The notes under the pieces were generated by a model, which saw only the letters and a list, made by a program, of their open reading frames with translations, searched no databases and was not told the DNA's origin. The position numbers and the translations under genes were made by a program. Of a stretch of DNA of 64,000 bases, positions 13,474 to 63,222 are shown in pieces (within the stretch, counting starts at the first letter, position 1; the number at the start of each line of letters is the position of its first letter). Origin of the DNA: Branchiostoma floridae (lineage: Eukaryota; Chordata; Leptocardii; Amphioxiformes; Branchiostomatidae); assembly GCF_000003815.2 (NCBI RefSeq), contig NC_049993.1, forward strand, positions 5,483,686-5,547,685, read 5' to 3'.

Positions 13474-14682
13474 TCACGAGTGCACGTGCGGCCAGGAAGG
13501 GACGCTGCCATTGCACTGCAGACATTGCCTGTACTTCTCCAGGTCCATGTGGAGGGGGGAGGTGAAGGCGCTGGTCCCGCCGCCGAACGGTAAGGAGTCC
13601 GGGGGTCTGAGTCCGGTGGCGCAGACCGGGATGGTGGCGGGGACCGACACGGTGGGGCGGAACGCGGGTGCTCCCGTCGTGCTGATGGAGAAGGTGGTGG
13701 AGACAGTCTTGTCGCTGGCAGCGCTGCTCCCGATGATGTTTTCTATGGAGAACCCCGCCGGCCGGTGCGTCGTGACGGGGGTGGTGACGGGCAGGGTCAA
13801 CCCGCCCACCGAGGCGAAGGCGCCGACTCCCCCGGCGATCTGCGCGGCCAGCGCCTGCGTCCGTGCGAAGTCTGCGGCGGTCGGCGCGTGGGGGAGGGGC
13901 AGGGGGACGGGCGGCGGCAGCGGGGACATGTAGTGGTAGGGCAGCGCCGCTGGGTGAGGGTGGTGGTGCGGGTGGATCAGGCCCAGGTGGTGTCTGTACG
14001 GATCCGTGGCCGCCATGAAGGCCGTGGGCTCCCGTAACACGTCCGGAGCCTGCCGCTTGAACCGTTTTCGGCGCCGCAGGAAACTGCCGTTGTCGAACAT
14101 GTCCTCGCTGGCGGGGTCCAGCGTCCAGTAGTTGCCCTTGCCGGGGTTGCCAGGCTCGCGCGGGATCTTCACGAAGCAGTCGTTCAGCGAGAGGTTGTGT
14201 CGGATGGAGTTCTGCCACACCGGGAACCGCTCCCTGTAGTAAGGAAACCTGTTCATGATAAACTCACAGATCTGGCTGAGAGTCAGTTTCTTCTGCGGAG
14301 ACTGCAGAATTGACATGGTAATGAGAGCTATGTAAGAGTACGGCGGTTTCACAAGGTTGGATTTCTTCCGTACAGACTGTCCATTCTTGTCTTCCACGTC
14401 TGTATTCTCCGCGTCCGAGTGCACGGACACAGAGTCACCCGACACGTCCAGCTCTTTGTCGCCCGGCTCGAGTTCGTGGGTCTTCCCCGGGCTGTCGCCG
14501 TCCCTCCTGGCGGCGTCAGGGTCGGCCTGGGCCGGGCTGCCCTGTGGATGGCTCCCCTGGCTGGTCATCTCCCGGGGAAGGGTGGCGTGGGACTGCGTCG
14601 GTCTTGTTTGCACTTGGTGGTTTTGGTTTTCTGCCGGCGTAGCAGCATGCACAGGCCTGGTGGCGTCCGCCTCGAGAAGCAT
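13474..14682 (-). CDS. FoxD: FoxD forkhead transcription factor, single exon, 402 aa
   Basis: The protein is a nuclear DNA-binding factor of the FoxD class, which in chordates acts in somite, notochord and neural development, often as a repressor. The forkhead domain spans about residues 110-211. It opens with [15 protein letters not shown] and carries the recognition helix [19 protein letters not shown], then [10 protein letters not shown] and a basic RRRKRFKRQ tail. An acidic N-terminal patch (residues 78-99) and a His/Pro-rich stretch (229-265) fit FoxD. FSIENIIG (311-318) is an eh1 motif, the Groucho/TLE-binding signature typical of this class. The first in-frame ATG after an upstream TGA is used as the start. 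Its context is weak (C at -3), and Met40 (14565) has G at -3, so a shorter form is possible. Tandem stops TGA-TAG follow. There is no intron, as is usual for FoxD genes. The coding region is clearly more GC-rich than its surroundings. No convincing AATAAA was found close downstream. Confidence 0.96.
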
Positions 14683-14806
14683 TGGTGCTGGGTTGGCCTG
14701 CTGACTGAGCTGGTGCGGCGGGGGTCACCCTGTTTTAAGTGTCCACTCCACAGCTGTGAAACTCGTGAGGAGAGCTCAGCCACTTCTGGCAAGATGTGCT
14801 GCAACG

Positions 14807-14817
14807 TAAATATATCA
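14807..14817 (-). promoter_or_regulatory. TATA-like box upstream of FoxD
   Basis: On the minus strand this reads TGATATATTTA, about 125-135 bases 5' of the FoxD ATG. It is a plausible core promoter for a short 5' UTR. A palindromic E-box CACGTG lies further upstream at 14938-14943. No transcript evidence is visible, so this is a candidate only. Confidence 0.3.
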
Positions 14818-14949
14818 ATTCCCGGGGCAGGCTGGAAAAAAAACGTGAATTCAAGGCCCACCCACCTCGACTGTGGCCAGAACCTGTATGAAGTCCGCAG
14901 AGTTGCAACAGTCGCTAATGTCAATTGTGCGCGCGGTCACGTGGGCTAG

Positions 14950-17900
14950 CTCCGCTACTACCGGTCATTACCATACTCGATTCATCAATGCTTTGGGCTG
15001 TAAACGCCCCCTTCGATAATTAGGCGATTTGCTCTGTAAACAAAAGCTGGCATAAACGGTAATAAAAGATGCTGATTAGCAAGTCCTCGGCCAACCAGTC
15101 GCCGATACACACTCCAGTCGGCAGATACACACACACACAAACTGTGTGAACAAACTTGGGACGGCCCCAGTGATGTGGTCGGGACGGTTTCTGTTGTAGA
15201 TACGTTACGGCACTACCAATTACCTCGCACATTTGCTGATGGGCCGAGCAGATAGCGGAGTCGAGTGGCGATCGCTCGCCACGGGAGCCCATTGGTTCGC
15301 CCCTCCTCCACCCCAACACATCAGGTAAACATGCATAAAAGATGGGACACTGAAATATGAACCCTAACAGTCATCTCAGGGAAAAAAACGGGACAAATTC
15401 GGAGCACATGCGGGAGTTAAGTAAACTGGAAAGAGGGAGGGTCCTTAAGAAAACAAGCAGCACAAGAAACCTCCTTCTGTGTAAGCAAAGACAAGGTGGT
15501 GTCATGGTGAAGTGTTGTAAGCACACGGGGAAACAGCTTAGCTTTGCCCGTGCCAGATCACGTCTTGCCCGAACCCGACCCGGGGGTGAGCAGGGGGAGG
15601 TACGGACAGCTGCCGCCCCCCTCCCCTCTCCTCACGTCCCCGGAGACGCGCAGCGGAAGGTGGTGGCTTGAAGAAATAGGTTTGTTTACTTTCCTCCCAT
15701 CTCCAACAAACAACAACAATCGATCATCGGTAAACATTTTGTTCTGGTTGAGATACTGTTGATTTAGCCGGTTGGCAAACACCCCGCTGTTGGTACACAC
15801 ACACACACACATACACACAGCGTCTTGGCAAAACTTTGTTTTATTTAGAAGTCGTCGTCATTTTTTGTGGTTTTCTTTGTTGAGATACACGGAATGACAC
15901 AAAAACATGCACGGGGAGAGGTTGAAATTCGTATACACAAAATAAAGAAAGTGAATTACACAAGTCAATGGAAAGTAACAAGTAAAAATACTAAAACATG
16001 GCCATCTGATGGCCCTCTTTTTTTTTAGTATGAGCAAATTAGACATCTTACTTTAATATAGTTTATGATCGTTATAATTTCAACCATCAGACAACTGAGT
16101 GTAAAATGTAAAGAACTCGACTGTATCATTTTATTGGGCATTTCAGACAATGGAAATGTCTTTCATGTGAGAAAAAACATTGCTAGCATTCATATCTACA
16201 TATACGCGTGTAAGAAATGTACATATGCTATAAAAAAGTTGACGAAAAGGACTCATCTATTCGTCTATTACAATTCTTTCAAGCACACACGTTTGTATTC
16301 AAAACTATTATCTTTTACCATGTTCGTTTCAGTGGAACGGTTTTCAGTTAAGACTTAGACTGACAGGCTATTATTTGTAAAATTCATGATACAGTATTCA
16401 CAAATGGCAGCATTTCATCGATCCTATATCCGTGCCTCGCGAAAAAGACGCAGGGAGGTTTGTTTTTCTTGGCGGACGATATTTCTGCGGGCCGGGGCAC
16501 GTGGTGGTCACTTCACGGCCTGGCCAAGCCGCCCCGCCAGGACCCCGTGGTCAAGATTCCTCCCTGGCGGAAAAATAAACAAAAGTAAACATCACAATTG
16601 TTATCTGTACAAACACCGCACACAACATATGTTGGTGAAACGCTTCGATCGCTTGACAATCGTAGCGACCTACAATAACACATAAGGGGGGGGGGGGCGC
16701 ATATGCTTTGGATATTCGCTCGCGAGCACAAATATTTAGCTATCCTGTTGCGTTCGTTTTGACTTGTGAATCGCATGATCGCTGTGTAAGTACAAATCGT
16801 TTATCAATCATGGGAAAGTCATCAACAAGTAAAAGTGATGCGTTAAAGAATGATTATGTACAACCACATATATGCATTTTGTTTTCAAGCTTTGAGGTGT
16901 TACGTTTCGTTTTATTTCCAACCTTCCCCCACTTGTTGCAGTAGAAGGATGCTACTGTGGATCGGAGTGTGTATCAATGTACGCTGAGTGGATACACAGA
17001 GCGGCACATTTTTGCCACATTTCGCACGTACGTGAGACGGAAGGCCGGGGATACCGAGCTAATACTCGTTCACACCTCCGTGTTTGGATCCCGCTGGGGG
17101 AGGAAATGGGCCAAAATTTACACCCAGTTGCCGCCACACGTGGGGACATGGGCGAGCAGACTTCGCGATTGTTTTATGAACTGATGGGCTCGTTTGTTTC
17201 TCGGCGGGGGTTCTGTCTGGATTGATACAATCATACATTCCCCTTCCCCATCTTCTACAGCACGCGTGTGCGTTTAGACGCGGTGATTCGTCGTAACGTA
17301 AGTCGTCCCACGATTCTGATATGCCAGAACCAACGAACGACGACGGTCTAAAATAGTCTTTTCTGTAGTGTAGCAACATAACCGAATTTTGTACGACATA
17401 TGGACGACAATCATATAAGAAATTCAATGTACTCAGTTTGCGATCGTACGACAACTTTGCGACTATTACCACTCCAGTATGTATAAACGTGATCACGCCA
17501 CGAGGAAAAGGACGTCAAAAAACGTTTAGTTTTTCTACAAACATAACGAAAGGTCTGTCTCAGTGTCTGGAAACAAGTTTTATTTCAATTTCCAATCCTT
17601 GTGTTTTTCACCAAAGCAGCGGGGGCAGTCTTTAGAAATCCACCAAACAAAAACACGGAAAAAACTAATGAAAACACTTTTCTCCCTGACAAATCGCCCA
17701 TCTGTTGGGGCGATCTGTTTTGTCGTGTGTGTGTATTGACCACAGATATGTCTGGCCATCTTTTGTGATTGTGGCAATGATTTACAGGTTTGAAAGAGCT
17801 TCCTCTGGGCTTCGCGGACGGAGGAAATTCCCTGACGTCCACCCCAACAGAACCCCCTGTCTCAACACATCCTAACAAAGGCAGGCGGACAAACTTGGGC

Positions 17901-18433: not shown

Positions 18434-18439
18434 TTTATT
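18434..18439 (-). other. Candidate polyadenylation signal for a short ZNG1 form
   Basis: The minus strand reads AATAAA here, about 160 bases past the end of ZNG1 exon 13. It would serve a transcript that reads through the GTGAGT at the exon border and stops at the in-frame TAG two codons later. Confidence 0.3.
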
Positions 18440-18598
18440 TCTATCATAATTCTTTTATCATAGGGACATTCTGTTTCAAAATGTTGTTACAGAATCAAAC
18501 TTTTGAGCGCCTGTGAAAATTTAAACTCAACCGTGATGAATTTAAGGACTGAATGATTTCTGTCCGTCTGACACGTCCTACAACAACGGACTACTCAC

Positions 18599-18731
18599 CA
18601 ATAAAAACTAATCTGTTGATCCTACTGGTAGTCTCGTCCTCAGGCCAGGGAGAAGTCTCTTCCAAGTCGTACAGCTCGTGAACAGCCTGGAGCAGGCATC
18701 TCCGAGGGCAGCCTCGCAGCGACAACAGGCC
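18599..18731 (-). CDS. ZNG1: ZNG1 exon 13: last exon recognised
   Basis: The exon encodes [20 protein letters not shown], then [20 protein letters not shown] and LVFI plus one base. HELYDLEET is nearly identical to vertebrate CBWD. The exon lies 17 kb from exon 12. The border is GTGAGT, a consensus donor, which would lead to a final exon for the usual GRNLD.. tail. If it is not used, the frame reads I-G-E-stop (TAG), which would remove about 30 residues from the normal C-terminus. Confidence 0.9.
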
Positions 18732-21700
18732 CTGGAGTAACACAGGGATTCCTTTGTTAGATATAGTTTAGTACGTAAGAAATGATCCCTCATACATTCG
18801 TATTACACTATCTTTGAATGCCACTGTTACTGTAATATCCTGAACATAACATTCTTCAACTCAGTTCAAGACTAGAAAACTCTAATTGGTCATGTGGGAA
18901 TAAAGCTGGAAAGGAAAGTGTTAGAAAAATGGATACCATTGACATCAATGAAAATGCTATGAAAAAAAGGAATATACAAGCAACACAATGGATAGAAGTT
19001 ATGTGATTGTGACTAGGTTTTAGCAAAGTCTTTTTTTTAGTTTTTAATCTGTTTAAATTTTCTTTCATTCAACTAATTTCATGGGTATGGGATTAGCTAG
19101 AACGATTTGTCTAGATGTGAGGGTGTATTGCAACGCTAATTGTTTTTGTGAATTTCTTCCACCTGGACATAAAACAATAGATAGGTGCTGCGGTCAGAAA
19201 AACAACAAACCTCCCTTCATCAGATTGAAGATAATCCCAGATATCCCTAATTTTCTGACCACCTAGAAAAGCTACAAAAAGGGATTTTTGCTGCATTGGT
19301 TTCAATGTTTTGGACCAATTCCACAGTGTTGTGGACTTTCCCTTGTCCTGGGCACCACAGACGGTCTGCAGACTACGCAAACAGGACCAGGGAACATGTT
19401 TGGTCACGGCAAACCGTCAGGACAAAGTTAGGCAAAGATAAGTATCCTTCTGAGACAATAATGTCCTAACACTTGGCAAGGCATGCGGCGGGTTGACTGA
19501 GTAGCGAAAACAAACTGTGGAAGTATTTGGAAACACGGAGTAAAACTAGTTTGTTACAGGACGAGACTGGCGTGCCGCTAGCTACACAAACAGGCGGCCT
19601 GGGGTGGGCCGCTGTCGGGGGCGCACAGATGAAAGGACGCGAGAAAAAACTCGGAAGTTTGGATTGCAGGGCTAATTTGGCTAATTATACGTCATGAGAA
19701 GGGATTGCAGGAATCGTTTATTTGTCTGTTTGTTTCATAAAACAATAAGTGTGACTATAGGAGGTAGAAAAGGCGCGAGACTGAATGAAAATCGTTTCAG
19801 AGCGTTGTGTGAAAAACGTAAAACTATTCGACGTTGTTTTTCTTCCCTTATTATGAGTTGAACGAATATAATATGCGCTTCCGGCAAAACACAATATGAA
19901 AACAACATCATAAACTGAGCATTGGTCAGAAATAAGCTCTAGAGTTCATTGTGAATGTGAACCATTGGCGGAAGACCGTGGGACAGTATTGGTGGGGCGC
20001 TCGCGCTCTAGCTACCCCCCCCCCCCCGCGGTTCCCCACATTATAATCATTAGAGGTGTTTCCGAAAAACAAATAGGGATGAGCCGAACAAAAACTTCCA
20101 TGTTTCGCTCCATTTCACACTAATCTAGTAAACAATGGCACCTCAGATCTCCTTCTTAAACCCTCCACGGCCCGCGGACAAAGATAAACTTTATTGAAAA
20201 GCACCAGCGCGCGTTGCACACAGAACCTGTAATTACTTACACCGCAATTTGTGTAGCCGGAGAGAAAAAGTGTAGAAACGCGAATGTTTGCCAGGCAGGT
20301 AGCGGTGTGTTTCTTCTCCGGTAGCCGTGTGCGAATGAAAGCGGTTTGGAGCGCTATCAAAACAGATGGTAGCTTACAACAAAAGTTTGTGCAAGTCCTT
20401 CAATCCTTTCTCTAAATCCCCTCCGTTTGGCTTCGCCTCGCTAGATTACCCGTGCCCGCCACCGTACACCCCTCGGCACACACTCCCCTATCTCTCCCAT
20501 CGATACGGATCCTCGGGTCGACAAATCCTGCACTGCGGAAAAACGCGGCCTGCCAGCACAAGCTTGGGACTTGTTGAAAAGCTATTAGCTCCGATGTCCC
20601 CAAAACAAACAGGGGTAATCGCAGATCGGGAGTCCTGGGCCGATAAGACGGGGTGATAAGCGCACAGGCACGCATTGAATGCGGGGCTCAAGTGTACCAG
20701 CCCCGCAGATACAAGGCAAGATAACGCCAATTAGACTACAGAACAAGACGAACAGATATACACAACACTCTCGGCAGTTCCACGCACACAGGAAGAAATA
20801 CAACCGATAACATGGCCTAAGAACTGTCGTATTGTTGTGGCATGTGGGAGGAAATGGTACAACAATAGGACAATGATAGTAGGAGTTTTTGTGTTATTTT
20901 GGTGGGCAGGTGAGAGAAAGTAGAAACAGTTTAGATACCTGCAAGGTGTTCAATCACTAGACAAGCCACAGGTACATAAATCACGACAAATTGTGTATAT
21001 ATTCTAGTCTTCTGCGCTTTTTTCGCCATCACACTGTAAAGAATTGGATCCAATGTAAATGAACTTTCTATATACATTTCAACATTCCAACGTTGTACTT
21101 GCTTGGATTATAAATGTAATGTAGTTTTTTTTATCGTACCCGGACAAAAACATTATCTACAACATATAGCTATGATATGACACCGTGTTTAAAAAAAGTA
21201 CAAACAGGTGTATACAAAGCTTGTAACTCTAATGTAGATGTCAACTGATGAATTGTCTTGCAAAGCGATCAGTCAGTGTCCTGTTGTGTTTCATGAGTGT
21301 GGTTTACTTTTCCCTCAGATTTTTCTTTAGTTCGTTTTTATGACGTAAGAAGTACATCTATACTATAGTAAGGAATGCAAGAAAACAATAAAGTGTAAGG
21401 CACACAGGTGTTCTTTCCTCAGGTAAACTTGGAAAAGGCCTCAACAGCACAGGTGAGTCACTTTCTTAACCACAAAAATGTTTTTTATTATCATTCCATA
21501 GTAGATGGCCGACAAGCTATGGAAAGACTGAATCTACATCATTTTTCGTCATCATTTCGTCTCTTCCATCTAACAATTCTAATCTCCAAGCAGATGTCGG
21601 GATGGGAGAGTGAAGGGTGTCCTAGACGGTCGTCTCGTTTCCCATCAAGAAAAATGAAGAAGCTAGAAACCTGCGCGATCTTTCCTTCCCACATCTGCTT

Positions 21701-24700
21701 GAAGATCCTTCCCTCCAGATTCACCTGTGACAGATGAAGGACAGGTGAGGAGCGGCGGCGCCTTTTGAACGCAGGTGTGAATCTGACGGGCCGAGCGAAG
21801 TGCATCCGCGCGCACAAGCCTTGAAAGGCCTTCTCAAGCCGGCAAGCATGGGCTATCACAACAAGCGGGTGGCCGGGCGGGGGTAATACCTGCGGAGTTT
21901 GCTGTAGGATCGGGGCCGGGGAGGCGACACCGCGACAGGTGCGCAGATTCGTCTCGGGGAGTTGGAAATGAAGTGTTAGCTCGGAAAACAAACAAACACG
22001 ACAGCGCTTCTGAGTGGAAAAGGTTAGTGAGATGTAAAGGAATGTGTAAATGTTGTGCTGAGGTTGGTAAGCATGATACTGGTCGATAGTTTCCCGGATT
22101 TTTCTGGGTGCTATCTGCCGGTACGATCTGGAGCACGCGGAGTGCCCCCCTCCCCCCTTCACTCTACCATAAAAAAAAAACAACTTGGAAAAATCCGTTC
22201 ATGGATGAAAACAGGAAATTATAACTCACACCAAAGTTGTGGAATGACATCTAGGTATCCGTTAAGATGAAATAATAAATGGAAAACTCAAAGAAAGGGA
22301 TGAAATAGACTCAGTTTCAGCTAATCAGTGACTTGAAGTAAGCAATACCAATGGGACTGATTCTACTAGACTGATTAAATCTCGCTTATAGCAGCCCGCC
22401 AAACACCCGCCGGCCCCCTAGGGGAGGGGCCAATTACAGCCCTGGACAGCGGAGTTTGTGTTACACAGACTAAGATTCTACATCCAACAGATACTTGCAC
22501 CGCGTTGTGTTATGTTTTTGCTGACATAAACACTGGTGAGCCATTCATGGGTCAAACATTTCCACTGTAGTACTTCACGATCCATGGTCAGAAACTCAGC
22601 AAATTTTAAACAGGTGATATTTCATAAGTTATGTCAACATAATCATAATTTACTACAAGCTCTGTACATCATATAGCCATTCAAATGATAAATAACGGTC
22701 CATTAATAAATGGCATATACATGTAGTGAAATATTACTTTACAACCATGGCAAGAATTTCCGATATTAGCGCCTAACAGAAATCCTTTTTCCGGACATGT
22801 AACTTGTTTATACCCTTTTTAGTATGCCAATTTCTCCATTTGAAAGTAATAACATGACAATCTGTTGGTGGTAAACCAGTGCCATGTAACAGTTCATAAT
22901 ACTAATAGTCGACCTCACAACGACCGCGCCCTACCACTAGAAACTGCGACAGCTGAGTGGCTTAAGATTTGATCAAGATCGCTCAGCGAATTTCATTGAT
23001 ACACAGATGAGCTTCCATGACAAACGAATTTGATCATGTTTTGTTTTAAATTATCCTTTTACATCGTTCATCATATTTCAGTTTAATCATGAAATAAAAG
23101 GTCACATAAATCCAATTGTTGTCACTGTACGGTCGCTTATAGCTTAGTGGAAAGAGGGGTTAATCAACATAAGAGCTACGCCAATGCGGTTGGTTATATC
23201 ATGTCATACGCCTGCATATCAAACACGTTGTTCACATTTATCCATAGAAGAGAAAGTTGCTCCTGAATACTGAATAAAAGCCTTTAAAAAGCATTAAAGA
23301 GTTCTAAACATAGAAACAAAACCCACACCCCAATTCAAATCGCTAACGAAAGTTTTGCTGTGACGTAAGCGCCCTGGCGGCCACCTGTTCTACCTGCCAA
23401 ACTTCCAGCCGCGCCATGTGTACTCTGTTATCCACTGTTACCACTTCTATTCGCTTTATTAGAAAACCCGGGTTAGTCCTACAAAAACACAGCAGCGAAG
23501 GGCACACGTCGTCAAACTTTCATGTAGCCACAAAACGAGCGATAAAATTCTCTCAATGACGGAATAAAAAGCGACATAAATTAAAAGTGTATATGTGCTG
23601 AACGGTAACAAAGAAATAATAACGACTTTAAAGTTACTTCTCACAATTCACTATCCAAAAGAATAATATTTTGATATCACCTATGACATATGAGGTAGAA
23701 AAACGGACGCTTTGACTCAAGTTTAAGCTATTCAGCTTTCAAAAAAAAACAAAACAAATGCGATTTTGCGTTTAACATAGTAAGTTCTAAAAACTGACAA
23801 TCTATACACTATTTCGACGTTAACGCAAAACATATCATCGAAAAAAATGTTAAAATCTACTTTTTAGTTCATTTCAATTACGTCCCTAAAACGCACACGT
23901 ACTTTAATTTCTTGCATTTAAACTGCAATACGTGACCACCTGGTTTCTGATGTCGTCGCTGCCAAATTTACACCAACAGACCGCGCGCAATGGTAGCGCC
24001 GTCCAAACACAATGGTACTTCATCATTTTTATGGTACGACGAGTGATATTTTATAGACCATTCTCGTTTACCATGCGCATATTTGCCCGCTCATAGAGGA
24101 AGTTAGGCCGCCTAAATGACCGATATTTCTTCACAGAGACAACAATCACCCCATTTCTGATGATATGTATTTTTCTACCTTTATTGCTCCCTTTCTATTA
24201 ACTGTGCTGAGTGTATTCAGTGCGTATTGATTAGTTTGCACTTGTAATGTATTCGGTAAAGGTTTTCCCGTTGTGTGTACAAATGTAACGTACATTCACA
24301 CTTAACGTGTAAAGATCTCCTTTGTCCGAAAGGCTGTGTAAAGGCAGCTCAATTTGTGGCCGCTTTTGTTAACGCGGTAGAAAAATCTATACCTTTACTG
24401 TCGACATTTCCTTGAAAGTACCCGCCAAAGGCCTGGCAGCCTGGATCGAATGCAAATTTATATCATCAAAATCGCTGCACGTCTGGCTCAAACGGCAGTT
24501 TATTTACGACCAACACTAGGAGGCTTTGTGACAACCCCGCCGTAATACTTTCTTTATGAACTTTCCGTTTGCAGACACTCTTTACACAGCGCCTTATGAC
24601 AAAGTGCACTTCACCGGCAGATATAAATGTGTGATTGCACAATAAAACAGACGACCGCGCCGCTGGCTAGCAATCAACCTTAACAAGCTCTAACATAGAC

Positions 24701-27700
24701 TGATGGACGTACGGCGTGTAACAGCTTGCATAATGGGGTCGTCAGTGGCGGCTAATGGCCAGATATATGGCTGTGTTAGCGTCGTGCGAAAAATAAAAGG
24801 ACCGGGTTGAACGCGGCAAATCCCGCGCGTTGATCCGCTGAAGTGGACTCAGTAAGCGGCGGAACAATCGTCAGACTACCGGGCTTAAGACACTCTTAAT
24901 CTGCGCAGGACTCAACTACACTTAAACGGACGGACCGAGACTCCTTAAGGGATGTGCTCGGTACTTGAGGAAACGACACAATTATAGGGGGTTTGCTGGC
25001 GACTTCTGCTTCCAAATTACACAGGTGTAAACGTGAAGATCCGACTTCCCAACACGAGGATGAACTATTAATTACAAACAATGTTCGGAAACTTTGCAAA
25101 AATGCGATTCAACACTCAAATAGTAGAGTGGTTAAAAAAATCAGCAGGCAAACATATGGTTGAATACGTTGCAACGCTTGCAAAGTTACATATAATGTGA
25201 GCAAAGCGCTTTACGCACATAGACGTGTCTAGAATAGACATCTGACGTGTTTTGCCAGTCACTAACGTTGTTTGGTTTGAAAAGTAATAAAATGCGCGAG
25301 CACACACACACACAAACAAACAAACATATAAGAACACACAAACATACGCTATTAAAGTCAAAACAAGTAGAGACTTGCAGGAGTGACTGTCCGCACATGA
25401 CGTACATGAGCGTGATAAAACGTATTCCCATCATTTATTCCATTCACTTCCTTTTATGAAATTTGAACATTTTCCAGACACCATAAAAACCTCTCGTGTT
25501 CCCTGTAGCCCGTTGACTCGGACGGGGGAGTTTGTAACGTAACGCGAACCGCGGCAGAGCTTTTCTCCCACGGAGCGGCCCATGCGGGATTTATCTCCGC
25601 GGATTGGAGAAGCACTACATCCGCACATCCATCACAACAGACCCTACATCACTGTCAATTTGAAAGGCTATCATAAGGACATCAATCGAGCGGCGGACCC
25701 AAATTTGGAGCCGTAACCGTAATCTGTGCCTGTACGGGGGCAGGCGACGTAACCGCACCACGACCGGGCGGGGGGAACTGCTCAACAGAAAGGCAAGAGT
25801 TCGACAAGCCACGAGGGGAGCCACGTCAAACGTTTATTCAGCTATTCATCACGATTAAACATAGCCTATACTAAGGTTAAAGCAGCAGACGCCACTTGCC
25901 CCCCACCCCACCCCAGCCCGAGACTGTATATGCCAGGTCCATAGAGGGAAATGCCGTGGGAGCTGACCGCACAATTATGTCATGCGCTCCATTTTGGTAA
26001 TAAAAGGAACTCCGGCACAATTCCTCAAGACATAAATCACCGGGAAGGTACCATTTATCACATAGCTACGTGCTGCTGAGACTTTCATAGGAAAGCATTG
26101 CACTCTGCTCTAAACAGGAACGAAAATTCGAAAAAAGGTTCTCTGCAAAACATGACGTCTGCTGACGTAAGCGATGATCAAATTTCATTAGCACGTGTTC
26201 TATTACATGTAAATGATTGTAAAAGTTTGTAATTCAAGACATTACTTTTTTCAATTTAAGAATTATTCGAATGCTTTGACCTACAACCGGCGACTACAAA
26301 CTGCTTTGTAAAAAATGTCATGGCTTTTACACTTTTTAGGGCTTTTGAGTACGAGCATTTTGAAAGAAAAAAAAGTAACATTCGCTACCTACCACTATAA
26401 TTATTACAAATCATTGCAGGCTGTAAAGAACTATTAAGTGTATATATTTCTTAGGTTAATTTGTGGGTAACTTGAGTAAAATGATATTGGCACAGAAAAC
26501 ATCACTCAGTGAAAGTTTAAGCATAGAAGTTCAATGCCGTCTGACCAAACACTTTAACCCCCACCTCAGCTCAAGCGACCTAATGACATATTTCCTGTAT
26601 TCTCTGCCGTCATCTATACCATTTAGGCACCTGCCCTGCACTACACTGCATTACACAAGCTTCACACAACTTCACATCAACACTTGTGTCTCATCCCCAC
26701 TTCTCAACAGGGACGAAAACACTGTCTCCGTACTCCAGCCGTCACAAGGACCGGCATCCCGCCCCATCCAATCTCACTCCTGTGTCAAGAGCGCTTTCCA
26801 AACCCAATGTGGCAGCACTACTTCTCCACAGGAGTGGCGCGTTCTATTAAAACACCGGCTTTTGAAGTTGTCAGCGATAGACAGCGTCGCCCTTGAAACT
26901 TGAACGCCAAGACTGGTCAAGACTTTAACGTCAGGACTGGACTACTAACCGAAATAGCCTCGGCGGACGATACCCTTTCGGTTGGCGTTACAGCCCCCCA
27001 TGGTGCTCTCTGTGAGAGTTAAAATGAGGGCGGTTGATATTGTGTTTGGGCGCACAAATATTTTCTTAGCGGCATCTTTTCTTTGCATGACCTTTCGAGA
27101 TTTGAGGAAAAGGGGGAGGGGGGCGGTTGTTCTTTCAACGCGGTTTTGGCGCGGAAGGTTTCTTCAAAAGCTGTTTTTCCTGCCAACTGCGTGTGGGATT
27201 CCTGAGCGATGACGACAGAAGTAGTGGGGAAGAACGTTTTTCCATCCGCACCACCAGTCACATCAAAGTCCCTAGGCCTCTCCCCCTGCCCTGATGCCGC
27301 CACTCAGCTTATGTTACCTCGGTGCCTTTTGCCGCTTGCTGGTAATAATTTGGCGCTAAACGATACAGCAGGCATTGTGCGCGGCCACAATAAGAAACCC
27401 ATTTGCTGTGATAATCATATGAATTTATGTGGAGAAACATTATCCCGCGCGTTCAGTAAACTATCCACGGGGGACGAAATCCCGCGAATATCGGGCCAGA
27501 TCACCCGCACTCGCGCCGTCTCTCTCGCCGCAATAAAACCATGATCCCCGCCTGATTCCGCCGCAATAATCGTACGTTTTACCGGGATTTGGGCCATATT
27601 AACAGATACGCTTCTAATGGCACCCAATATAAATAGCAGAGCCGCGGTTTAGCACGTTGGCTCGGGTTATCCATTTTCTCATTTCACTTGTACAGGAGGA

Positions 27701-51700: not shown

Positions 51701-54700
51701 ACGGTAATCTAATTTTGCTCAAATTGTTTTCTTGCTGTATATACCAGTGAAAAGTTGGCATGTAGTTTTCTATGGATTTGCTTGATTACTGCATTCAGGT
51801 TTTGCAAAGAAAAAGATAGAAACTAAACATCCTTAACTGAACAAATGATATGGGTTCTTTTGATTTATTTTTGCACATTTAATCATTATAAATCTCTCTT
51901 GGTGTAATCATTGTGATATAGACAACAAATATTGTATGATGTGTATGCTAGGTTTAGGGCTTGTGAAAGTATTATCTCTGAGTCATGCTCATTCCAAACA
52001 ATGTATGGGAGAACATTAAAGATCCTTTGTTCAAAACTTGTCCATAAGATTAGGGATTTGCCCTGTGTGCTGTGGACATCTTCTTGAATTGAGGACATTA
52101 CAGGCACATGCCTTCTTTCCCATCACTCGCTATGGTAGACAATCCTACAGAATGTTACATGTACGGTATAAAGTACTTTGTTTCAATGAGTTACTTTCAG
52201 AGTAAGTCAAAAAGGACTTTGTGGTGATATATCGGACAGGATTGCTGACTGAGAACTTCTGCTACTATACTAACTAAACAACTTTCCTATAGCTTTCCAT
52301 CACAAATCCTACCAAGTGCCTTTCCAACACATGTGATTTCCTGAAACAACACTTGCATTAATGTAGCCTTACTTGCCCTTTGAAAAGTAATCAGAGAGAC
52401 AAACTCTGGATGATAATGCAAGCTAACACACCATGTTCACCTGGCCTTGGGGCAGCGGCCAATGATTCTGCCTAATGATCTAGAAAATTGTAGGGAAAAG
52501 TCACCTTTGGGCTTGGCTTAATGGCTTCCACCAAGTTGGGCAGAATTTTTGTAGAATGATTTCTGTTGAGCCGATTATGTAACAGGCATGTTATTAAAGT
52601 CAGAGTAATAGCAAAGACTTTCTAGTTGCTTCCCTACTTCATTAATGGGTCTGTACAGCTACAAAGCTTTAGCATTGCTCTTTACTAAGTGTTAGAATAT
52701 ATGTGCTATTGTAATATCATCTATTCATATAGGGGCAATATATGCATCACACATACAAGGCGACATACACACACACAGATACATGTACACACATGTATGC
52801 AAACACACATACACACAGGCACGCACACACACACACACATGCACACACACACAATCACAAACATTTAGAAAAGGATGTGTTGCATTGAATATGAAAAGTG
52901 TACCAATCACTGTTAGTTTTAATGCTAGTTCACCTTTATCTGCGGGGTGACCTTTATCCATTGTCTTTAAAAACAGCATTTAGGAGTATCAAGTCTGCGG
53001 AATGTGGTTTCAAATCTGCAATATTTTCAAAATGTTCCAATTTCAAACCACTGTCCATCGACTTTATATCCCTGAATACACTTTTTTTTATAAACAACAG
53101 ATATAGGTTACCCTCAGATAAAGGTGATCTAGCGTTAGCTGCGAAAGAGCGACAATTCCAATAACAACTGATTGTCAGCCAATACCTGGGTCAGCCAGAC
53201 CGGTTGTTTCCAGCAGGATGTAGTCAAACCTTCCCTTCTTCAGCATCAGGTTCTCGATGGCCTTCACTCCATTGTCTCTGTAGAACACAAGGTCAGGGGT
53301 CAAGGTCAGGGGTCAAGGTCAGATGGTGACATGTGAGGTCTAGCTTTCTTTGACTGGACCAGAAGGCTGTGGGTTTGACTCAAGCTTAGTTTGTTCGTAT
53401 TTTAAATCAAAATACAAACAAGCTAGACTTGTATTTGAGCCTGAATTGATGTTACATGCTACATACATATATACATTGTAGATTGTTATAAGTTGTCAAA
53501 TTAGGGACAAAATTACTTTATAAAGTAATGAAAAGCTTTAGGAATCAAGTAATAAGGTGACAAAGTATTAAGCTTTTTCAAGAAATTCTATGCAGACACT
53601 ATACATAGCTACTAAAAGTAATCCCTTCTAGTGTTTGTTTCACAATAAAATACTGTACAAACCGTGATGATTTATATGTTATTCGCCACTAAAGACACTG
53701 TACTAAGTCAGGGAAACCCTACACCAAAAAGCTTTATTTCACTTCCATTTGGAAGATAGATTGTCCAATTACCCCGGTGAATGTATGAAAAGCAACACCG
53801 TTATACTCGTGTTCTTGACAACAAAAACCACATTTGTCACTGCTGTGGTCCTTACACACAGGGTTCAAGTTCATCCCGAGTTACTGTTGGGCCAGTCCAT
53901 TTGTCATCGAGGGGTGCAAGCTCCATAAGAATCATCACAAAGATTTGAGATATCTTTTCCTCCAACCATTTCTTAGAATCATGAATCTTTCCATTTGAAA
54001 AATGCCCTTCCTGTCTTGAATGCTAACTGTTGTGGAAACTTTAAAATGCAGAGGATGACAACTGACATCCAAAATAATGACAAGAAAGTGGCTTCTTTAT
54101 AATGAAGACGTGCATCTTAATTCTGTCGTAGATAGTTTGTTTCAATGTTTTTATTTTGTTTTATATTGTCACCCCTTCCTGAATGATCGAAATGAAACAA
54201 GCTAATACTTCATAAGAAGGGAGTAAATCTGTCAGTCTAAATCCACTTCCCATTTGGAGTGTAATTATATCTTAAACCTTGTCCCTTGTTCAGTACGATT
54301 AGATCATGTATCACTAATTTCCCCCAAGTTGTAAGGTTTCAGTTTGTTCCTCAGAAACTGTGGTCATTACTAACAAGGCCTTTAAACCTGGGAAGTCGTT
54401 AATCTTGTCATTCCTATAATGAAAGTTTGCTTGCAAGAAATAACTGCCATCAATCGGGTGAAAGTAAAAGTCATCACAGGCCAGTTTGGTGATAATTCTT
54501 TCCACCGAGTGAAAGTCGTTTCCTGTAAATTGTAGTTATCAAATGTCTGGGTGGTATCAAGATCAGGAGATTGCTTTACTAAAGACATCTCATCATTTCG
54601 TGTGCAGAAATGTCTCATATTTACAGGGGTGTCCAATGATATCCTGACAGCAGAAACAAGCCCATCAGAAACATGATGCTTTAGTTGTTAGTAAATGTGT

Positions 54701-60700: not shown

Positions 60701-63222
60701 GTCTTGAACATTACTTTGGAGCAAACACTGGTATGAGTCTGGTAACACTAAACGTTACTCATAAAAATGACTTATATTCTTGGGGAGTATGGACTCTTAC
60801 CAGTATTACTACCAGACTGGTGTTTTGGTATTGTTTTTGACTGGATGAATTTAACTGATTCTTGGGATATCCAGTACATTTTTGTCAGATTCAGAATGTC
60901 AGCATATCCTAAAACTTGAAACCTACCTCTGTACAAAAACTGTAACGTCATATGGTGTTTCTGTATTTTCCATTGTTTTCAGTCAAAAATTCCCTCTCAA
61001 AATATGGGATACAGTGTTTCAAAGAGTTAGAAACAATAAAATTTTACTGGGGGTATGCCTTCTCGCAGGCTCCCCTGGCATTCTCCAAGCAGAGGTATGG
61101 TGGAGGATTATTGTGGATGGGATTTCTTACTGCTCCTTTCGCTTTCTGTATAGCAGAGGTGAGGGGAGGAAGCAGTATGAAATTCCAGCCATTAGTGCTA
61201 TTGCCGACCCAACCTCTCCTTGGACAAGGCATCAGATCCAATACGACATAAGAAAAGATGCCCAAAGATGCTAACTGTTAACCTACTTGACAGAGCAGCA
61301 GAGACAACCGTTCCTGAGCTCCAGCCACTCTTCAAACACCTCTCCTGACTCTCCCAGGGAGATAGGCTTCTCAATCTCACCTCCTGAAGGACAAAAAACG
61401 GAGGAAAAGAAAGGGAAAAGTTTCAGTTTTAATAATAATAATAATATCTGGTGTATTTGCAGCGAGTAGGTACACAATATTTGGGTAATGAGGCTGATTG
61501 ACGTGGTCGAGGTGCACCCTTGAGCACGGGACCTCCATTTAACGTCCCTTCCGTGGAGGTCTTGGTCCGGCTGCAGCATCCAGTCGTCCTTGGGTGTCTG
61601 GACTGCACGTTGCTTAACTTCCACGATCGAGGGATTATGTGTGTCCAACGCGCCACACAGCCGTAGCTAAGTCAAGACTATACAGACATTTTTGTGAGGT
61701 ATCAGTAAAAGTTTTTTTGCCCGAACACTTTGGTGTTTCCTTGTAAAAAGTAAGCAAAATGATGTCATAAACAAATGCCTTTTTGTAGCCTGGATACCAG
61801 ACCCCAGCCTGACCTCAAAAATTATCTATTGATAGATGTGCTTGATATCAGCTGGGATCTGGTATCCAGGCTATTGCTAGCTATAGCCTTTTTAGTGCTT
61901 CCTAACATCTAAAGTTATCAAACAGCGATGCTAACTGCTCTGTGCAAATCATCATGTAGGTCCTCTTTACAAAACTTAACATAAATGTTGCCATAATCGA
62001 CAAGCCCAAAGTACATATGGCACAGCCATTATGCCAATTCTAAGCGAAATCACATCCGAGTTACCCACACATTTTGTCTGAATAAAGGAGACACATAAAT
62101 CAGGATTACTTTCCAACAATAAACTAATGTGTTGATAGCCAAAGTACATTATGCAAAGTAAGCACCCATTGTGGCAGGTTCAACGTAATGTGACAGTGCT
62201 AATCAAACGTCTCAAATTTCCGTACGAGGGAACCACAAAATGGTTATAATCAGACCCGGCGAAGCGAATCTCTAAATGGGTACGATACATTATAGTCTCT
62301 ACAAACAGTTTGTCTTGATGGAACTGTTGGTAAAGCATTATGTGATTTGATTACGTGAATCGGGCTAATGTGAACTAACTGTGCGCTGATCTCCGCTACT
62401 GAATGATCGCCGCTAATCATATCTACCAAGTTAATGAGCCCAAACTGCCGCGCACAGCTTGAACGAATTCATTTGTCCATTACGGCAAATTGGTGCAGCA
62501 ACAACGAACAAAGGAAGGTACAATATGTACGCCAAAATGCTTTTTGTGTGAATTGTGTTGACAGTAGACCAGACATGTTCCACACTGTCAGTGTTGTAAT
62601 ATGTGTAATTACCAATATGTGTCATTACCTCTGCCTGAAAGGTTACTTTTTTATTACATTTGTTCTGAGGATAACACAAAATTCTACACTTGGACTGTTA
62701 TCACCATTTGGTAGTGAGTGAATGTTGATCCGGATAAAAACAGCAACTTTTTTGAGATACTATGTACTAGATCTGGAATGAGTCTTTTTCTTAAACATCT
62801 AACTTCTAGAGGGCCATCTTGGCATGCAACAAATCTAAAAAAAAACCCTTTTCATCAGTGAATGAAGAACAAGTAATAAGCATTCTGTTTCAGAAAGTTT
62901 TGTTTTCTTGTCAGAAAGGAGTAGAAACAGTCTCCTGGCTCTTGGGATCCCATATGGCCTAGTGGTTAGGATTCGGCACTCTGTACCACCAAGGCCTAAT
63001 GTAAGAAAGGAGTAGACATCACAAACCCAGCACCACAAACCACTACACCAAAAGCTCAGCGCCTTTGCATGGTCAGTTTGGCTGCACTTGAACCCCACTA
63101 TTACACTTTACCTGCACCATGCTGTGGTTACTCACCTGCCCCAAACTCGTTCATGATGACAGCGATGCGTTTCCCATGCTGCTCTGTGAGGATGTGGTTC
63201 AGCAGTGTGCTTTTACCGGCAC
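18599..63222 (-). CDS. ZNG1: ZNG1/CBWD (COBW domain) zinc-chaperone GTPase, 13 exons, 5' partial
   Basis: This is a G3E-family P-loop GTPase of the COBW/CBWD group. Vertebrate ZNG1 transfers zinc to the methionine aminopeptidase METAP1. The spliced exons total 957 bases, about 318 codons; human CBWD1 has 395. Visible motifs in order are the Walker A end GAGKS, the metal-binding NGCLCC (CxCC), the switch-like ETTGLADP, and the guanine-specificity motif NKVD. The C-terminal domain follows, with LDLHAF, a His-rich HSHHLDQ and HELYDLEET. Every junction is GT..AG and all twelve joins keep the frame, which is strong evidence for a live gene. The N-terminus, up to the first glycines of the P loop, lies beyond the window. 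The extreme C-terminus is unresolved. The introns carry most of the mobile elements in the window. Its 3' end faces the FoxD promoter. Confidence 0.93.
18732..22366. other. Long ZNG1 intron, FoxD-proximal part
   Basis: It contains poly-pyrimidine and poly-C tracts (near 20015) and the inverted-repeat element at 21582. No exon was recognised on either strand. Confidence 0.5.
21582..21706. repeat. Inverted-repeat element with CTCCAAGCAGATGT ends
   Basis: ATCTCCAAGCAGATGTCGGG at 21582 pairs with TCCCACATCTGCTTGAAGAT at 21687-21706, apart from one or two bases. The motif CTCCAAGCAGAT also occurs near 945 and 3458, which suggests a dispersed family. Confidence 0.6.
22367..22472 (+). mobile_element. 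Short TIR element, family A copy 2
   Basis: The ends are TAGACTG...CAGACTA. The flanks TGATTCTAC and AGATTCTAC form a 9-bp duplication with one change. The body includes TTAAATCTCGCTTATAGCAG and GCCCTGGACAGC, shared with the other two copies. Confidence 0.85.
22473..28114. other. Long ZNG1 intron, middle part
   Basis: Largely repeat-poor. 23900-24900 and 27300-27660 are AT/CpG-mixed and rich in homeobox-like cores, including an octamer ATGCAAAT near 24448. This is candidate regulatory DNA and nothing is coding. Confidence 0.4.
28115..28276 (+). mobile_element. 5'-truncated copy of the tRNA-derived SINE
   Basis: About 160 bases match the 3' part of the element at 45815-46294 with a single substitution noticed by eye (AATTATG for AATCATG). 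Both end in TTGAGT plus a poly-A tail. The tRNA-like head is missing, consistent with incomplete reverse transcription. Confidence 0.87.
28277..35841. other. Long ZNG1 intron, distal part
   Basis: It holds the twin CREs at 31051 and a poly-G run near 32776. GC-rich blocks at 30180-30560 and 33360-34560 have open frames on both strands but no domain. No exon was recognised. Confidence 0.45.
31051..31068. promoter_or_regulatory. Twin CRE palindromes
   Basis: TGACGTCA occurs at 31051-31058 and again at 31061-31068, one helical turn apart, inside the larger inverted motif TCATGACGTC..CTCATGA. CREB/ATF proteins bind this octamer. The pair lies in the long ZNG1 intron near FoxD. Confidence 0.45.
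35842..35907 (-). CDS. ZNG1: ZNG1 exon 12
   Basis: A 66-base phase-0 exon encoding [20 protein letters not shown], then LK, matching the vertebrate [22 protein letters not shown]. It is flanked by AATTCAG and GTGGGT. Confidence 0.92.
36316..36384 (-). CDS. ZNG1: ZNG1 exon 11: C-terminal domain
   Basis: A 69-base phase-0 exon encoding [20 protein letters not shown], then FLQ. It aligns with the vertebrate SIVTITFEVPGN..MFIQ segment that opens the C-terminal COBW domain. It is flanked by CCGTAG and GTGAGT. The intron before it (6.5 kb) holds the retrotransposon. Confidence 0.9.
36385..38475. other. ZNG1 intron between exons 10 and 11, first part
   Basis: Apart from the fold-back element at 38005-38094, nothing recognisable was seen. 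Confidence 0.5.
38005..38094. mobile_element. Fold-back TIR element, family B copy 3
   Basis: A 90-bp element with ends TAGCCTGG...CCAGGCTA and paired arms containing GGGGCTCCTT / AAGGAGCCCC. A perfect 9-bp duplication CAAAGTAGC (37996-38004, 38095-38103) flanks it. Confidence 0.87.
38476..39020. repeat. Tandem repeat, three units of 180-190 bp
   Basis: GTTTCCTTTTGTCA begins units at 38476, 38656 and 38846. Each continues through TACACAG.AACTAGCTC, GTGCATACATGTAC and CAAGAGCTTAC..TC to GCTAATGCTA. Part of the third unit is deleted. Confidence 0.92.
39360..41443 (-). mobile_element. 5'-truncated non-LTR retrotransposon (RTE-like)
   Basis: The element sits in a ZNG1 intron in the same orientation as the gene. 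Its open frame continues upstream of the first ATG to a stop near 41443, so the endonuclease part has been lost, as happens in incomplete target-primed insertion. The 3' end carries a short (TGAG)n tail at 39360-39378, a simple-repeat tail typical of this kind of element. No clear target-site duplication was identified. Confidence 0.88.
39385..41292 (-). CDS. Reverse transcriptase ORF with internal PHD-type zinc finger, 635 aa
   Basis: The reverse transcriptase spans about residues 85-345: [36 protein letters not shown] (motif A aspartate), [11 protein letters not shown] (motif B) and LLYADD at 306-311 (catalytic motif C). Residues 366-409 follow a C-x2-C-x10-C-x2-C-x4-H-x2-C-x14-C-x2-C pattern, which is the Cys4-His-Cys3 order of a PHD finger. 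It is placed between the polymerase and the C-terminal part. The C-terminus has [14 protein letters not shown] and RGRPKRRW, common in RTE/CR1-like elements. There are no internal stops, so the copy is young or constrained. It lacks an endonuclease and is not expected to move on its own. The exact clade is not resolved. Confidence 0.9.
   Translation of the reverse strand: MKNKIFKLARNMKSENQDVIGEKCIRQDDGCIAFTDVDKLSAWKCHYERLLNVEFPWDPDTLDEVSPVYGPPPKIDRARTTKAINAMKKGKAAGPSGIVAEMIQAGGDFMADQIASLTNAIIKEEKIPNDWNLSYIINCYKGKGDSMERGNYRGLKLLDQVLKVVERVLEPMIREQVHIDSMQFGFMSGRGTTDAIFILRQLQEKFLSKRKDLYLMFVDLEKAFDRVPREVLWWAMRKLGVQEWLVRTVQSMYCHARSSVRVNGKYSPEFDVKVGVHQGSVLSPLLFIIVMEAISRDFRVGCPWELLYADDLGLAAETLTLLSQRFSPWKNNLSSHGLRVNTGKTMVVHCKYNDSRPSKETGKFPCGVCHKGVGDNSIFCTQCKHWIHKRCTKIKGKLKEDPNFICHSCSNQAPTPPEPPLMEATVSGDTFKVVPIFCYLGDTIGQSGGCADAVTARIRSAWKSFHELLPILTNRNIPFRNRGHVYSSCVRSAMLYASETWALSAEDVRRLVRCDNAMTRWICSRRLAERVPSEQLRCRLGLHSIHDILRYNRLRWYGHVQRMSQDSWPRKVLNLSVVGQNPRGRPKRRWVDNVKEDLRKLQKANPLDRDGWRAAIRPKRLDDTSNLCKTGKNGR
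41444..42851. other. ZNG1 intron next to exon 10
   Basis: It includes the (ACATGT)n tract. A minus-strand ORF (42509-42835) starts just inside the intron and has an ordinary-looking first half, but it matches nothing known to me. Confidence 0.4.
42360..42407. repeat. (ACATGT)n microsatellite
   Basis: About seven hexamer-like units of ACATGT with one interruption, self-complementary throughout. Confidence 0.92.
42852..42930 (-). CDS. ZNG1: ZNG1 exon 10: His-rich linker
   Basis: The exon was found by requiring one base to complete the codon left by exon 9 and a phase-0 end. It encodes [19 protein letters not shown], then HSHHLDQ. The end matches vertebrate QPHLDQ. It is longer and richer in Ser/His than the vertebrate linker. 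The acceptor TGTTGCCATAG follows a pyrimidine-rich stretch and overlaps an imperfect palindrome (42927-42940). Confidence 0.83.
43252..43308 (-). CDS. ZNG1: ZNG1 exon 9
   Basis: The exon encodes [18 protein letters not shown] and two bases (TG) of the next codon. LLDLHAF is the diagnostic match (vertebrate VLDLHAF). Acceptor CCTTTCAG and donor GTGAGT are both strong. Confidence 0.92.
43309..45052. other. ZNG1 intron between exons 8 and 9
   Basis: AT-rich with no recognised features. Confidence 0.5.
45053..45097 (-). CDS. ZNG1: ZNG1 exon 8
   Basis: A 45-base exon encoding [14 protein letters not shown], flanked by CATTCCAG and GTAAGT. It corresponds to the vertebrate SINGLGQILETQRSR region. 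It is separated from exon 7 by only 105 bases. Confidence 0.92.
45203..45289 (-). CDS. ZNG1: ZNG1 exon 7: guanine-specificity motif
   Basis: The exon encodes [20 protein letters not shown], then [12 protein letters not shown] is the G4 motif that selects guanine nucleotides. Acceptor TTTACAG and donor GTACAA flank it, and the frame is kept on both sides. Confidence 0.94.
45694..45740 (-). CDS. ZNG1: ZNG1 exon 6
   Basis: The exon encodes [15 protein letters not shown] and two bases of an arginine codon. It lies between TTTTACAG and GTAAGT. It matches the vertebrate HLTEEKPDGLINEATRQ segment. Confidence 0.92.
45815..46294 (-). mobile_element. tRNA-derived SINE, full length
   Basis: Read on the minus strand, the element begins GGGGCCGCGTAGCACAGTGG. 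It has a Pol III A box (TAGCACAGTGG, 46275-46285) and a B box (GGTTCGAATCC, 46232-46242). A body of about 400 bp then ends in a 10-base A tail. It lies in the intron between ZNG1 exons 5 and 6, in sense orientation. The distal part is almost identical to 28115-28276. Confidence 0.85.
46373..46410 (-). CDS. ZNG1: ZNG1 exon 5
   Basis: The 38-base exon completes the glycine from exon 4 and encodes [12 protein letters not shown], matching the IITIVDSKYGL strand of vertebrate proteins. It ends in phase 0 before GTTGGT. Confidence 0.9.
46549..47053. mobile_element. TTAA-flanked inverted-repeat element, 497 bp
   Basis: The termini AGGGGCATTCCACTCCAGAC and its partner near 47026-47049 pair over 24 bases with one mismatch. 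Both ends abut TTAA. TTAA targets are used by piggyBac and Kolobok transposases. There is no transposase ORF inside, so it is non-autonomous. Its right end is 17 bases from ZNG1 exon 4. Confidence 0.85.
47071..47130 (-). CDS. ZNG1: ZNG1 exon 4
   Basis: The 60-base exon encodes [19 protein letters not shown] and keeps the frame at both ends. It matches the vertebrate segment [20 protein letters not shown] in pattern. The donor GTAAGT is only 17 bases from the end of a TTAA-flanked inverted-repeat element. Confidence 0.92.
47131..50582. other. ZNG1 intron between exons 3 and 4, proximal part
   Basis: A short two-copy repeat near 48850-48960 (CCTCTG.GTAAACAAG.CCCCTCACCCC) is the only structure noted. 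Confidence 0.5.
50583..50799 (-). mobile_element. Second type of tRNA-derived SINE, with a TIR element inserted at its head
   Basis: The minus strand reads TGTAACTCAACTGGTACTAG (A-box-like, 50778-50797), then GGTTCAAGTC (B box, 50724-50733). An unrelated tail follows, including GGGATGCATATCC. The two boxes are farther apart than in a normal tRNA. The 3' border is not defined. Confidence 0.5.
50800..50900 (+). mobile_element. Short TIR element, family A copy 3
   Basis: A 101-bp element with ends TAGCCTG...CAGACTA, flanked on both sides by a perfect 9-bp duplication AGTTACAGG. The left flank is inside the A-box region of a SINE-like sequence, so it is nested in that older repeat. Confidence 0.87.
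50901..53185. other. ZNG1 intron between exons 3 and 4, distal part
   Basis: It contains the (AC)n tract at 52764. Nothing else was recognised. Confidence 0.5.
52764..52855. repeat. (AC)n-rich microsatellite
   Basis: An impure ACAC/ACATAC tract in a ZNG1 intron. Smaller (GT/AC)n tracts occur near 1340, 15797, 25300 and 57911-57965. Confidence 0.92.
53186..53277 (-). CDS. ZNG1: ZNG1 exon 3: switch region
   Basis: The exon encodes [19 protein letters not shown], then [19 protein letters not shown] is the conserved G3-like element following the Walker B strand. The exon completes the lysine begun in exon 2 and ends one base into a glycine. Its acceptor tract is made largely of a short GGTCA-type tandem repeat at 53289-53321. 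Confidence 0.93.
53289..53321. repeat. GGTCA tandem repeat forming an acceptor tract
   Basis: AAGGTCAGGGGTC is repeated two and a half times. On the minus strand it supplies the pyrimidine-rich CTGACCTTGACCCC stretch just upstream of ZNG1 exon 3. AGGTCAGGGGTCA also fits a DR1 nuclear-receptor site. Confidence 0.75.
53322..58726. other. ZNG1 intron between exons 2 and 3
   Basis: Mostly featureless AT-rich DNA. At 56840-56990 a degenerate motif, CTACGAATTACG and variants, recurs about every 30-40 bases. Confidence 0.45.
58780..59200. repeat. CCGCGG minisatellite, left arm
   Basis: Units of about 45 bp (CAGATTCCAACACTTCCGAG..CCAGTTCCAA..GTGCCGCGG) alternate with about 65-bp units that carry an extra GGTTTTCCAA, giving a higher-order period near 110 bp. 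The array stays open in several reading frames on both strands, so long ORFs here are by-products of the repeat. Confidence 0.9.
59210..59317. repeat. Nested inverted repeat
   Basis: CTCTACCAGGCTTCGTGGAT near 59211 pairs with ATACACGGAGCCTGGTAGAG near 59295 with few mismatches. It forms a second stem within the large fold-back element. Confidence 0.75.
59411..59493. repeat. Hairpin inside the fold-back element
   Basis: The arms 59411-59444 and 59461-59493 (AATGATACGAAGTCTTTCCA and complement) pair over 33 bases with one extra A. A weaker outer pairing, CTAATGGGTCAAG with CTTGACCCATTAG, extends the palindrome to roughly 59385-59540. Confidence 0.9.
59785..59875. mobile_element. Decayed fold-back element, probable family B
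   Basis: The ends TAGCCT..CCCAGCC and TTGGATACCAAGCTA form an imperfect inverted pair around an AT-rich centre. It lies inside the large fold-back structure at 58727-60429. No duplication was found. Confidence 0.5.
60245..60400. repeat. CCGCGG minisatellite, right arm (inverted)
   Basis: It contains the same units as 58780-59200 in reverse orientation, with two full CCGCGG-GTTTTCC units and a partial one. It is shorter than the left arm. Confidence 0.88.
60430..61286. other. ZNG1 intron next to exon 2
   Basis: No repeat family or exon was recognised here. Confidence 0.5.
61287..61383 (-). CDS. ZNG1: ZNG1 exon 2: CxCC metal site
   Basis: The exon begins after CCTTCAG and ends before GTAGGT. 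It encodes [19 protein letters not shown], then [12 protein letters not shown]. The NGCLCC motif is the conserved zinc-binding CxCC of this GTPase family. It leaves two bases of a lysine codon for the next exon. Read without splicing, the frame meets a TAG at the donor. Confidence 0.93.
61495..61663 (-). mobile_element. SINE with a 5S-rRNA-like head
   Basis: The minus strand reads CGATCGTGGAAGTTAAGCAA, then a gap and GACTGGATG. This resembles the internal promoter of 5S rRNA (CTCGGAAGCTAAGCA, then TTGGATGGG). Downstream, a 23-base run (61525-61547) is identical to one in the tRNA-headed SINE (46114-46136). The 3' side runs towards an (ATT)n tract near 61430. The assignment of the head to 5S is by eye. 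Confidence 0.55.
61786..61873. mobile_element. Fold-back TIR element, family B copy 4
   Basis: The ends are TAGCCTGGATACCAGA and TCTGGTATCCAGGCTA, 16 bases that pair perfectly. No immediate 9-bp duplication is visible. GCCTTTTT occurs just left of the element and again about 13 bases past its right end. Confidence 0.78.
61874..62947. other. ZNG1 intron between exons 1 and 2
   Basis: Nothing recognisable was seen before the tRNA-Glu-like fragment. Confidence 0.5.
62948..62995 (+). pseudogene. tRNA-Glu-like fragment, T arm missing
   Basis: The sequence TCCCATATGGCCTAGTGGTT, then AGGATTCGGCACTCT, matches the acceptor, D arm and start of the anticodon arm of eukaryotic tRNA-Glu. The anticodon loop is altered by an extra base, and no B box or 3' acceptor strand follows. 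It is either a broken tRNA gene or the head of an old SINE. Confidence 0.65.
63136..63222 (-). CDS. ZNG1: ZNG1 exon 1 of window: P-loop
   Basis: The exon starts after TGTCTGTAG and ends before GTGAGT. It enters two bases into a glycine codon and encodes [18 protein letters not shown], then [10 protein letters not shown]. The phosphate-binding loop is GAGKS, where vertebrates have GAGKT; both are functional P-loop forms. The EFG after the second strand is typical of COBW GTPases. The upstream exon, expected to encode VTIITGYLG or similar, is not in the remaining 780 bases. Confidence 0.93.

Follow-up and report, generated by a model that had tools for sequence, protein, structure and literature searches.

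Is the pairing of FOXD4 with CBWD (ZNG1) in the human genome a primate curiosity, or does it descend from an arrangement that vertebrates inherited? The question is raised by a stretch of 64,000 nucleotides of Branchiostoma floridae (C15:5483686-5547685; hereafter the window), in which a first-pass annotation had placed a FoxD gene beside a ZNG1/CBWD gene. We searched the whole assembly (513,431,437 bases in 431 contigs) and compared the results with published gene orders. On the basis of this one non-vertebrate genome and these papers, we put at roughly 85% the probability that chordates inherited FoxD and ZNG1 as a gene pair with a fixed tail-to-head order.

The features of the pair are as follows; all ZNG1 exons belong to one joined model, and the means by which each was located is given in brackets.

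13474..14682, minus strand: single-exon FoxD coding sequence including the stop (402 aa counted from the first Met), eh1 at residues 311-318
14683..16507, minus strand: ZNG1-FoxD interval, 1,825 bases, poly(A) signal at 16135
16508..16563, minus strand: last ZNG1 exon, ending RNLDHGVLAGRLGQAVK-stop (joined model)
18599..18731, minus strand: ZNG1 exon, GLLSLRG...HELYDLEET...RINRLVFIG (tblastn)
18732..35841, minus strand: 17.1-kb ZNG1 intron, the longest in the model, a candidate site of FoxD control DNA
35842..35907, minus strand: ZNG1 exon (tblastn)
36316..36384, minus strand: ZNG1 exon (scoring of splice-bounded frames)
43252..43308, minus strand: ZNG1 exon (tblastn); a short exon is missing between here and 36384
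45053..45097, minus strand: ZNG1 exon (scoring of splice-bounded frames)
45203..45289, minus strand: ZNG1 exon with the NKVD (NKxD) motif (tblastn)
45694..45740, minus strand: ZNG1 exon (tblastn)
46373..46410, minus strand: ZNG1 exon (tblastn)
47071..47130, minus strand: ZNG1 exon (tblastn)
53186..53277, minus strand: ZNG1 exon (tblastn)
61287..61383, minus strand: ZNG1 exon with the CLCC (CxCC) motif (tblastn)
63136..63222, minus strand: ZNG1 exon 2 with the P-loop GAGKST (tblastn)
C15:5556627-5556477 (window-equivalent 72942-72792), minus strand: ZNG1 exon 1, MSDSSDEECPDLVP...ITGYLG, about 9 kb beyond the window

The FoxD gene lies in an intact minus-strand reading frame (13474-14724) that is open from 14724 and has its first Met at 14682. 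Its protein scored 129.2 bits against the Pfam Forkhead family, and the top match among 46 matched PDB sequences was Genesis/FoxD3 (2hfh, E 1e-62). The eh1 motif, FSIENIIG, is C-terminal. In the table of PMC1939712, B. floridae FoxD (AF512537) has 402 residues and an eh1 motif at 311-318, and the FoxD of the window agrees with the published protein in length and motif position. A forkhead-domain search of its own genome with FoxD returned 37 matches; one is 100 percent identical, and FoxE follows at 79 percent. A second FoxD copy could be ruled out among these 37, as the runner-up was FoxE, and amphioxus thus has one FoxD. The forkhead matches also include four of equal Pfam score, three on the plus and one on the minus strand, within 58 kb at C14:16451228-16509301, perhaps a recent tandem expansion.

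To build the ZNG1 model, we searched for exons by tblastn with human CBWD1 as the query and recovered two more by scoring splice-bounded frames. The tblastn matches varied in strength, several having E values of 1e-12 to 1e-8 and others being weak alone (E up to 1.5); the weak exons were accepted for their collinear order and flanking splice sites. The model comprises 14 exons, 13 of them inside the window, bounded by AG acceptors and GT donors. Exon phases agree except between 43252 and 36384, where one short exon was found neither by tblastn nor by scoring of splice-bounded frames; the phase at this junction is therefore not established. Even with that exon missing, the joined protein of 360 aa was recognized by the Pfam models cobW (PF02492, 178.7 bits) and CobW_C (PF07683, 61.3 bits), a recognition independent of the CBWD1 query, and 200 of 349 residues aligned with human CBWD1 were identical. 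The model carries GAGKST, CLCC and NKVD, which we take to be the P-loop, CxCC and NKxD motifs of ZNG1/CBWD. Exon 1, outside the window, contains CPDLVP, a CPxLVP motif that is presumably the N-terminal METAP1-binding stretch of eukaryotic ZNG1. Solved relatives found for the joined protein were YjiA entries only, and a ZNG1 fragment searched against the PDB gave no useful match. The division of ZNG1 into short exons explains why a Pfam scan of the minus strand over 49-64 kb, made in two of its three frames, yielded a single sub-threshold cobW match of 14 bits.

ZNG1 measures about 56 kb and the whole pair about 59 kb. The first-pass annotation had given the extent of the pair as 13474..63222; its left end is indeed that of FoxD, but its right end is where ZNG1 exon 2 starts, exon 1 lying further out. 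A cobW search of the genome gave two matches, the second on C14 with 33.3 bits. The C14 sequence was rejected as a ZNG1 copy: the single frame that was scanned matched no Pfam family, and tblastn with the ZNG1 model gave scattered matches, the best (E 0.003) covering 36 columns with a stop inside. Amphioxus has one ZNG1. The 5′ part of its exon 1 is present in five tandem copies, 129-137 bases apart (C15:5556621-5557157; window-equivalent 72936-73472), all of them having an ATG of their own and CPDLVP (CPGLVP in one); only the last reaches the splice donor.

The ZNG1 introns hold several other elements. A non-LTR retrotransposon-like frame of 684 aa with RVT_1 and a PHD finger occupies 39385-41439 on the minus strand, and a 190-base tandem repeat of 2.7 copies lies at 38476-38974. 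Tandem arrays with 44/65/109-base units around CCGCGGCA were seen at 58752-59204 and 60249-60387, the latter inverted by eye relative to the former. At 46221-46292, minus strand, there is a tRNA-like sequence (Rfam, 35.8 bits) on which ARAGORN makes no call; it is perhaps a SINE or a tRNA pseudogene.

The arrangement itself is as the first-pass annotation had described it. Both genes are on the minus strand, and ZNG1 lies upstream with its 3′ end facing FoxD, its stop ending at 16508 and the FoxD ATG standing at 14682, so that 1,825 bases separate the two in tail-to-head orientation. This interval presumably holds the ZNG1 3′UTR and the FoxD promoter. Several results speak against a misassembly: the window contains zero N, the flanking sequence matches it at both overlaps, the ZNG1 exons are collinear through the last one, and the chromosome holds the expected company (FoxE, KANK, DOCK and Dmrt). 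The probability that FoxD and ZNG1 were falsely joined in the assembly is accordingly close to nil.

This company was charted along C15, which measures 21.5 Mb or 4.2 percent of the genome. FoxE lies at C15:5631186-5632448 (5.63 Mb), 133 kb from FoxD and 75 kb past the 5′ end of ZNG1. It encodes 381 aa with eh1 at 227-234 and, by length and motif position, equals B. floridae FoxE4 as entered in PMC1939712 (381 residues, FSIDNIIA at 227-234). Given this agreement of both FoxD and FoxE with the B. floridae entries, a hemichordate or mollusc source of the DNA was rejected. The sole KN-motif match of the genome, KANK, is at 6.70 Mb on C15. A DOCK-C2 search gave eight matches, two of them on C15, both at 11.97 Mb and one with an internal stop; the remaining six were on C4, C5 and C12. 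The C15 fragment reads ETPVGYT, which we take, from a comparison of this short motif with human proteins, to be the DOCK6/7/8 form, and the gene appears DOCK6/7/8-like. Among 12 DM-domain matches, the four best are all on C15 (1.18, 1.20, 13.57 and 13.60 Mb), the other eight being on C4, C19, C234, C1, C5, C6 and C165. It is thus plausible that C15 is the counterpart of the vertebrate FOXD4-CBWD block. Measured from FoxD, FoxE is 0.13 Mb away, KANK 1.2 Mb, DOCK 6.5 Mb and Dmrt 4.3 to 8.1 Mb; among the genes tested only ZNG1 adjoins it. With all the others 0.13 to 8.1 Mb off, conservation of the whole chromosome does not by itself explain the tightness of the pair.

Further frames were noted nearby. 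Between ZNG1 and FoxE (C15:5570989-5604928) are ankyrin-repeat, LRR and B-box/NHL frames and a TPT (SLC35-like) exon, and an N-terminal fukutin exon (FKTN_N, 31 bits) lies 11 kb beyond FoxE. On the other side of FoxD, C15:5432288-5432623 holds an amidase exon (97.6 bits; FAAH-like by eye).

Order and orientation had also been described as those of human FOXD4-CBWD. We take human FOXD4 and CBWD1 both to lie on the minus strand near 9pter with CBWD1 upstream; on that footing order and strand would be identical, and the orientation would be that of the FOXD4/FOXD4L-CBWD neighbours in general. What the literature upholds is the shared location: in their accounts of 9p24.3, PMC8104183 and PMC8606205 place FOXD4, CBWD1, DOCK8 and KANK1 there, distal to DMRT1, and DOCK8, KANK1 and DMRT1 have counterparts on amphioxus C15. 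FOXD4L1 and CBWD2 both appear among the genes of the human chromosome 2 fusion site in the part of PMC10496407 devoted to it. Recent segmental duplication has multiplied the human copies, against a single gene of each kind in amphioxus.

Xenopus tropicalis offers a lineage without the primate duplications. On one side of Dmrt1, the gene-order passage of PMC12467463 lists Kank1, Dock8, Cbwd3, a Cyp2J6-like gene and FoxD5a, and this order makes the FoxD-ZNG1 linkage older than primates. The linkage is the same as in amphioxus, although the Cyp2J6-like gene is listed in between and the likeness covers gene order, not strand. For Rhinatrema, the same passage lists Pgm5 and Tmem252 after Cbwd3 and is not plain on the place of FoxD5. 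As far as these listings go, adjacency is not uniform among vertebrates, which limits the ancestral reading. A second vertebrate region includes KANK4, USP1, DOCK7, ANGPTL3, ATG4C, FOXD3, ALG6, EFCAB7 and PGM1, as named in a passage of PMC4422726. It combines a FoxD paralogue with KANK and DOCK paralogues, families also present on amphioxus C15, and FOXD3 is described as the target gene of a regulatory block with bystander genes in the relevant part of PMC2745767. In contrast to the amphioxus locus, ZNG1 is absent from the genes named around FOXD3 in PMC4422726, a list that is a selection.

Linkage between Fox families is a separate matter from the FoxD-ZNG1 pair. FoxD-FoxE linkage is already known, and passages of PMC7859237 and PMC4077281 quote distances of 20-300 kb between linked Fox families, a range that includes the 133 kb between amphioxus FoxE and FoxD. 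For planarian Fox genes, PMC7859237 states in its synteny section that no conserved microsynteny was found, the assembly being fragmented; it also says, citing Irimia et al. 2012, that microsynteny between some Fox genes and other genes has been kept across metazoans.

Could FoxD and ZNG1 have met independently in amphioxus and in vertebrates? Few lineages were compared, and one ancestral chromosome probably held both genes, which raises the odds of such a meeting. Nevertheless, in a crude uniform model that allows either side of FoxD and any orientation, the chance of so small a gap is about 7e-6 genome-wide and still about 1.7e-4 given one shared chromosome, and strand and order are the same as those taken for human. 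As C15 also carries other members of the X. tropicalis block, shared descent is the better reading and a coincidence very unlikely. The adjacency in B. floridae, the block members on C15 and the X. tropicalis linkage, as that passage lists it, together support the claim of the first-pass annotation that the pairing predates the vertebrate duplications. Under shared descent, the pair would be older than the vertebrate whole-genome duplications. ZNG1 would then have stayed beside the FOXD4/FOXD5 copy, it was apparently lost from the FOXD3 block, and primate segmental duplications would later have spread a FOXD4-CBWD unit that was paired beforehand.

Why would the two genes have stayed so close? 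The reading that we prefer, at about even odds, is a bystander relation in which control DNA of FoxD, a developmental target gene, would extend into ZNG1, a broadly needed bystander, and occupy its 3′ part and its long introns. Separating the two would then harm FoxD expression, and they would be kept together. A candidate seat of such control DNA would be the 17.1-kb intron at 18732-35841, which is the largest of ZNG1 in the model and the first long one met from FoxD. Alternatively, the ancestral pair may be held by nothing beyond its short gap, few random breaks falling within 1.8 kb. Much of the 1,825 bases is necessarily ZNG1 3′UTR and FoxD promoter, and the other neighbours lie far off, both of which fit such passive retention; the extra gene listed between Cbwd3 and FoxD5a in the Xenopus passage of PMC12467463 indicates that the linkage there survived an insertion. 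As there is little room for a harmless break within 1.8 kb, we regard passive retention as nearly as likely as the bystander relation.

The shared strand and the short gap would also suit a coupling of transcripts, with ZNG1 read-through or shared promoter activity feeding FoxD and the pair kept for co-expression. We consider this improbable, as the poly(A) signal at 16135 stands between the genes and FoxD expression is tissue-restricted, whereas ZNG1 is expected to be broadly expressed. The furthest extension of the bystander relation is that ZNG1 has hosted FoxD control DNA since before vertebrates, and that primates spread FoxD together with an inherited regulatory bystander; this we hold to be possible but rather doubtful.

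No paper title that we found reports a FoxD-ZNG1 pair outside vertebrates; our coverage did not extend to Irimia et al. 2012, the work likeliest to list it. With that reservation as to novelty, the pair is probably a further case of ancient microsynteny. Read in this way, the FOXD4-CBWD neighbourhood goes back to before the vertebrates instead of being a primate curiosity. The pair provides an outgroup for identifying the FoxD duplicate that has retained the ancestral locus. It also marks the stretch of ZNG1 in which FoxD control elements might be sought, namely the 17-kb intron and the 3′ end; any FoxD upstream element longer than 1.8 kb would include the end of ZNG1 (compare the element that PMC7014683 describes as tested). 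If ZNG1 did host FoxD control DNA from before the vertebrates, its absence beside other FOXD duplicates would mean loss or replacement of old control DNA, and could thus be relevant to the origin of the role of FoxD3 in the neural crest.
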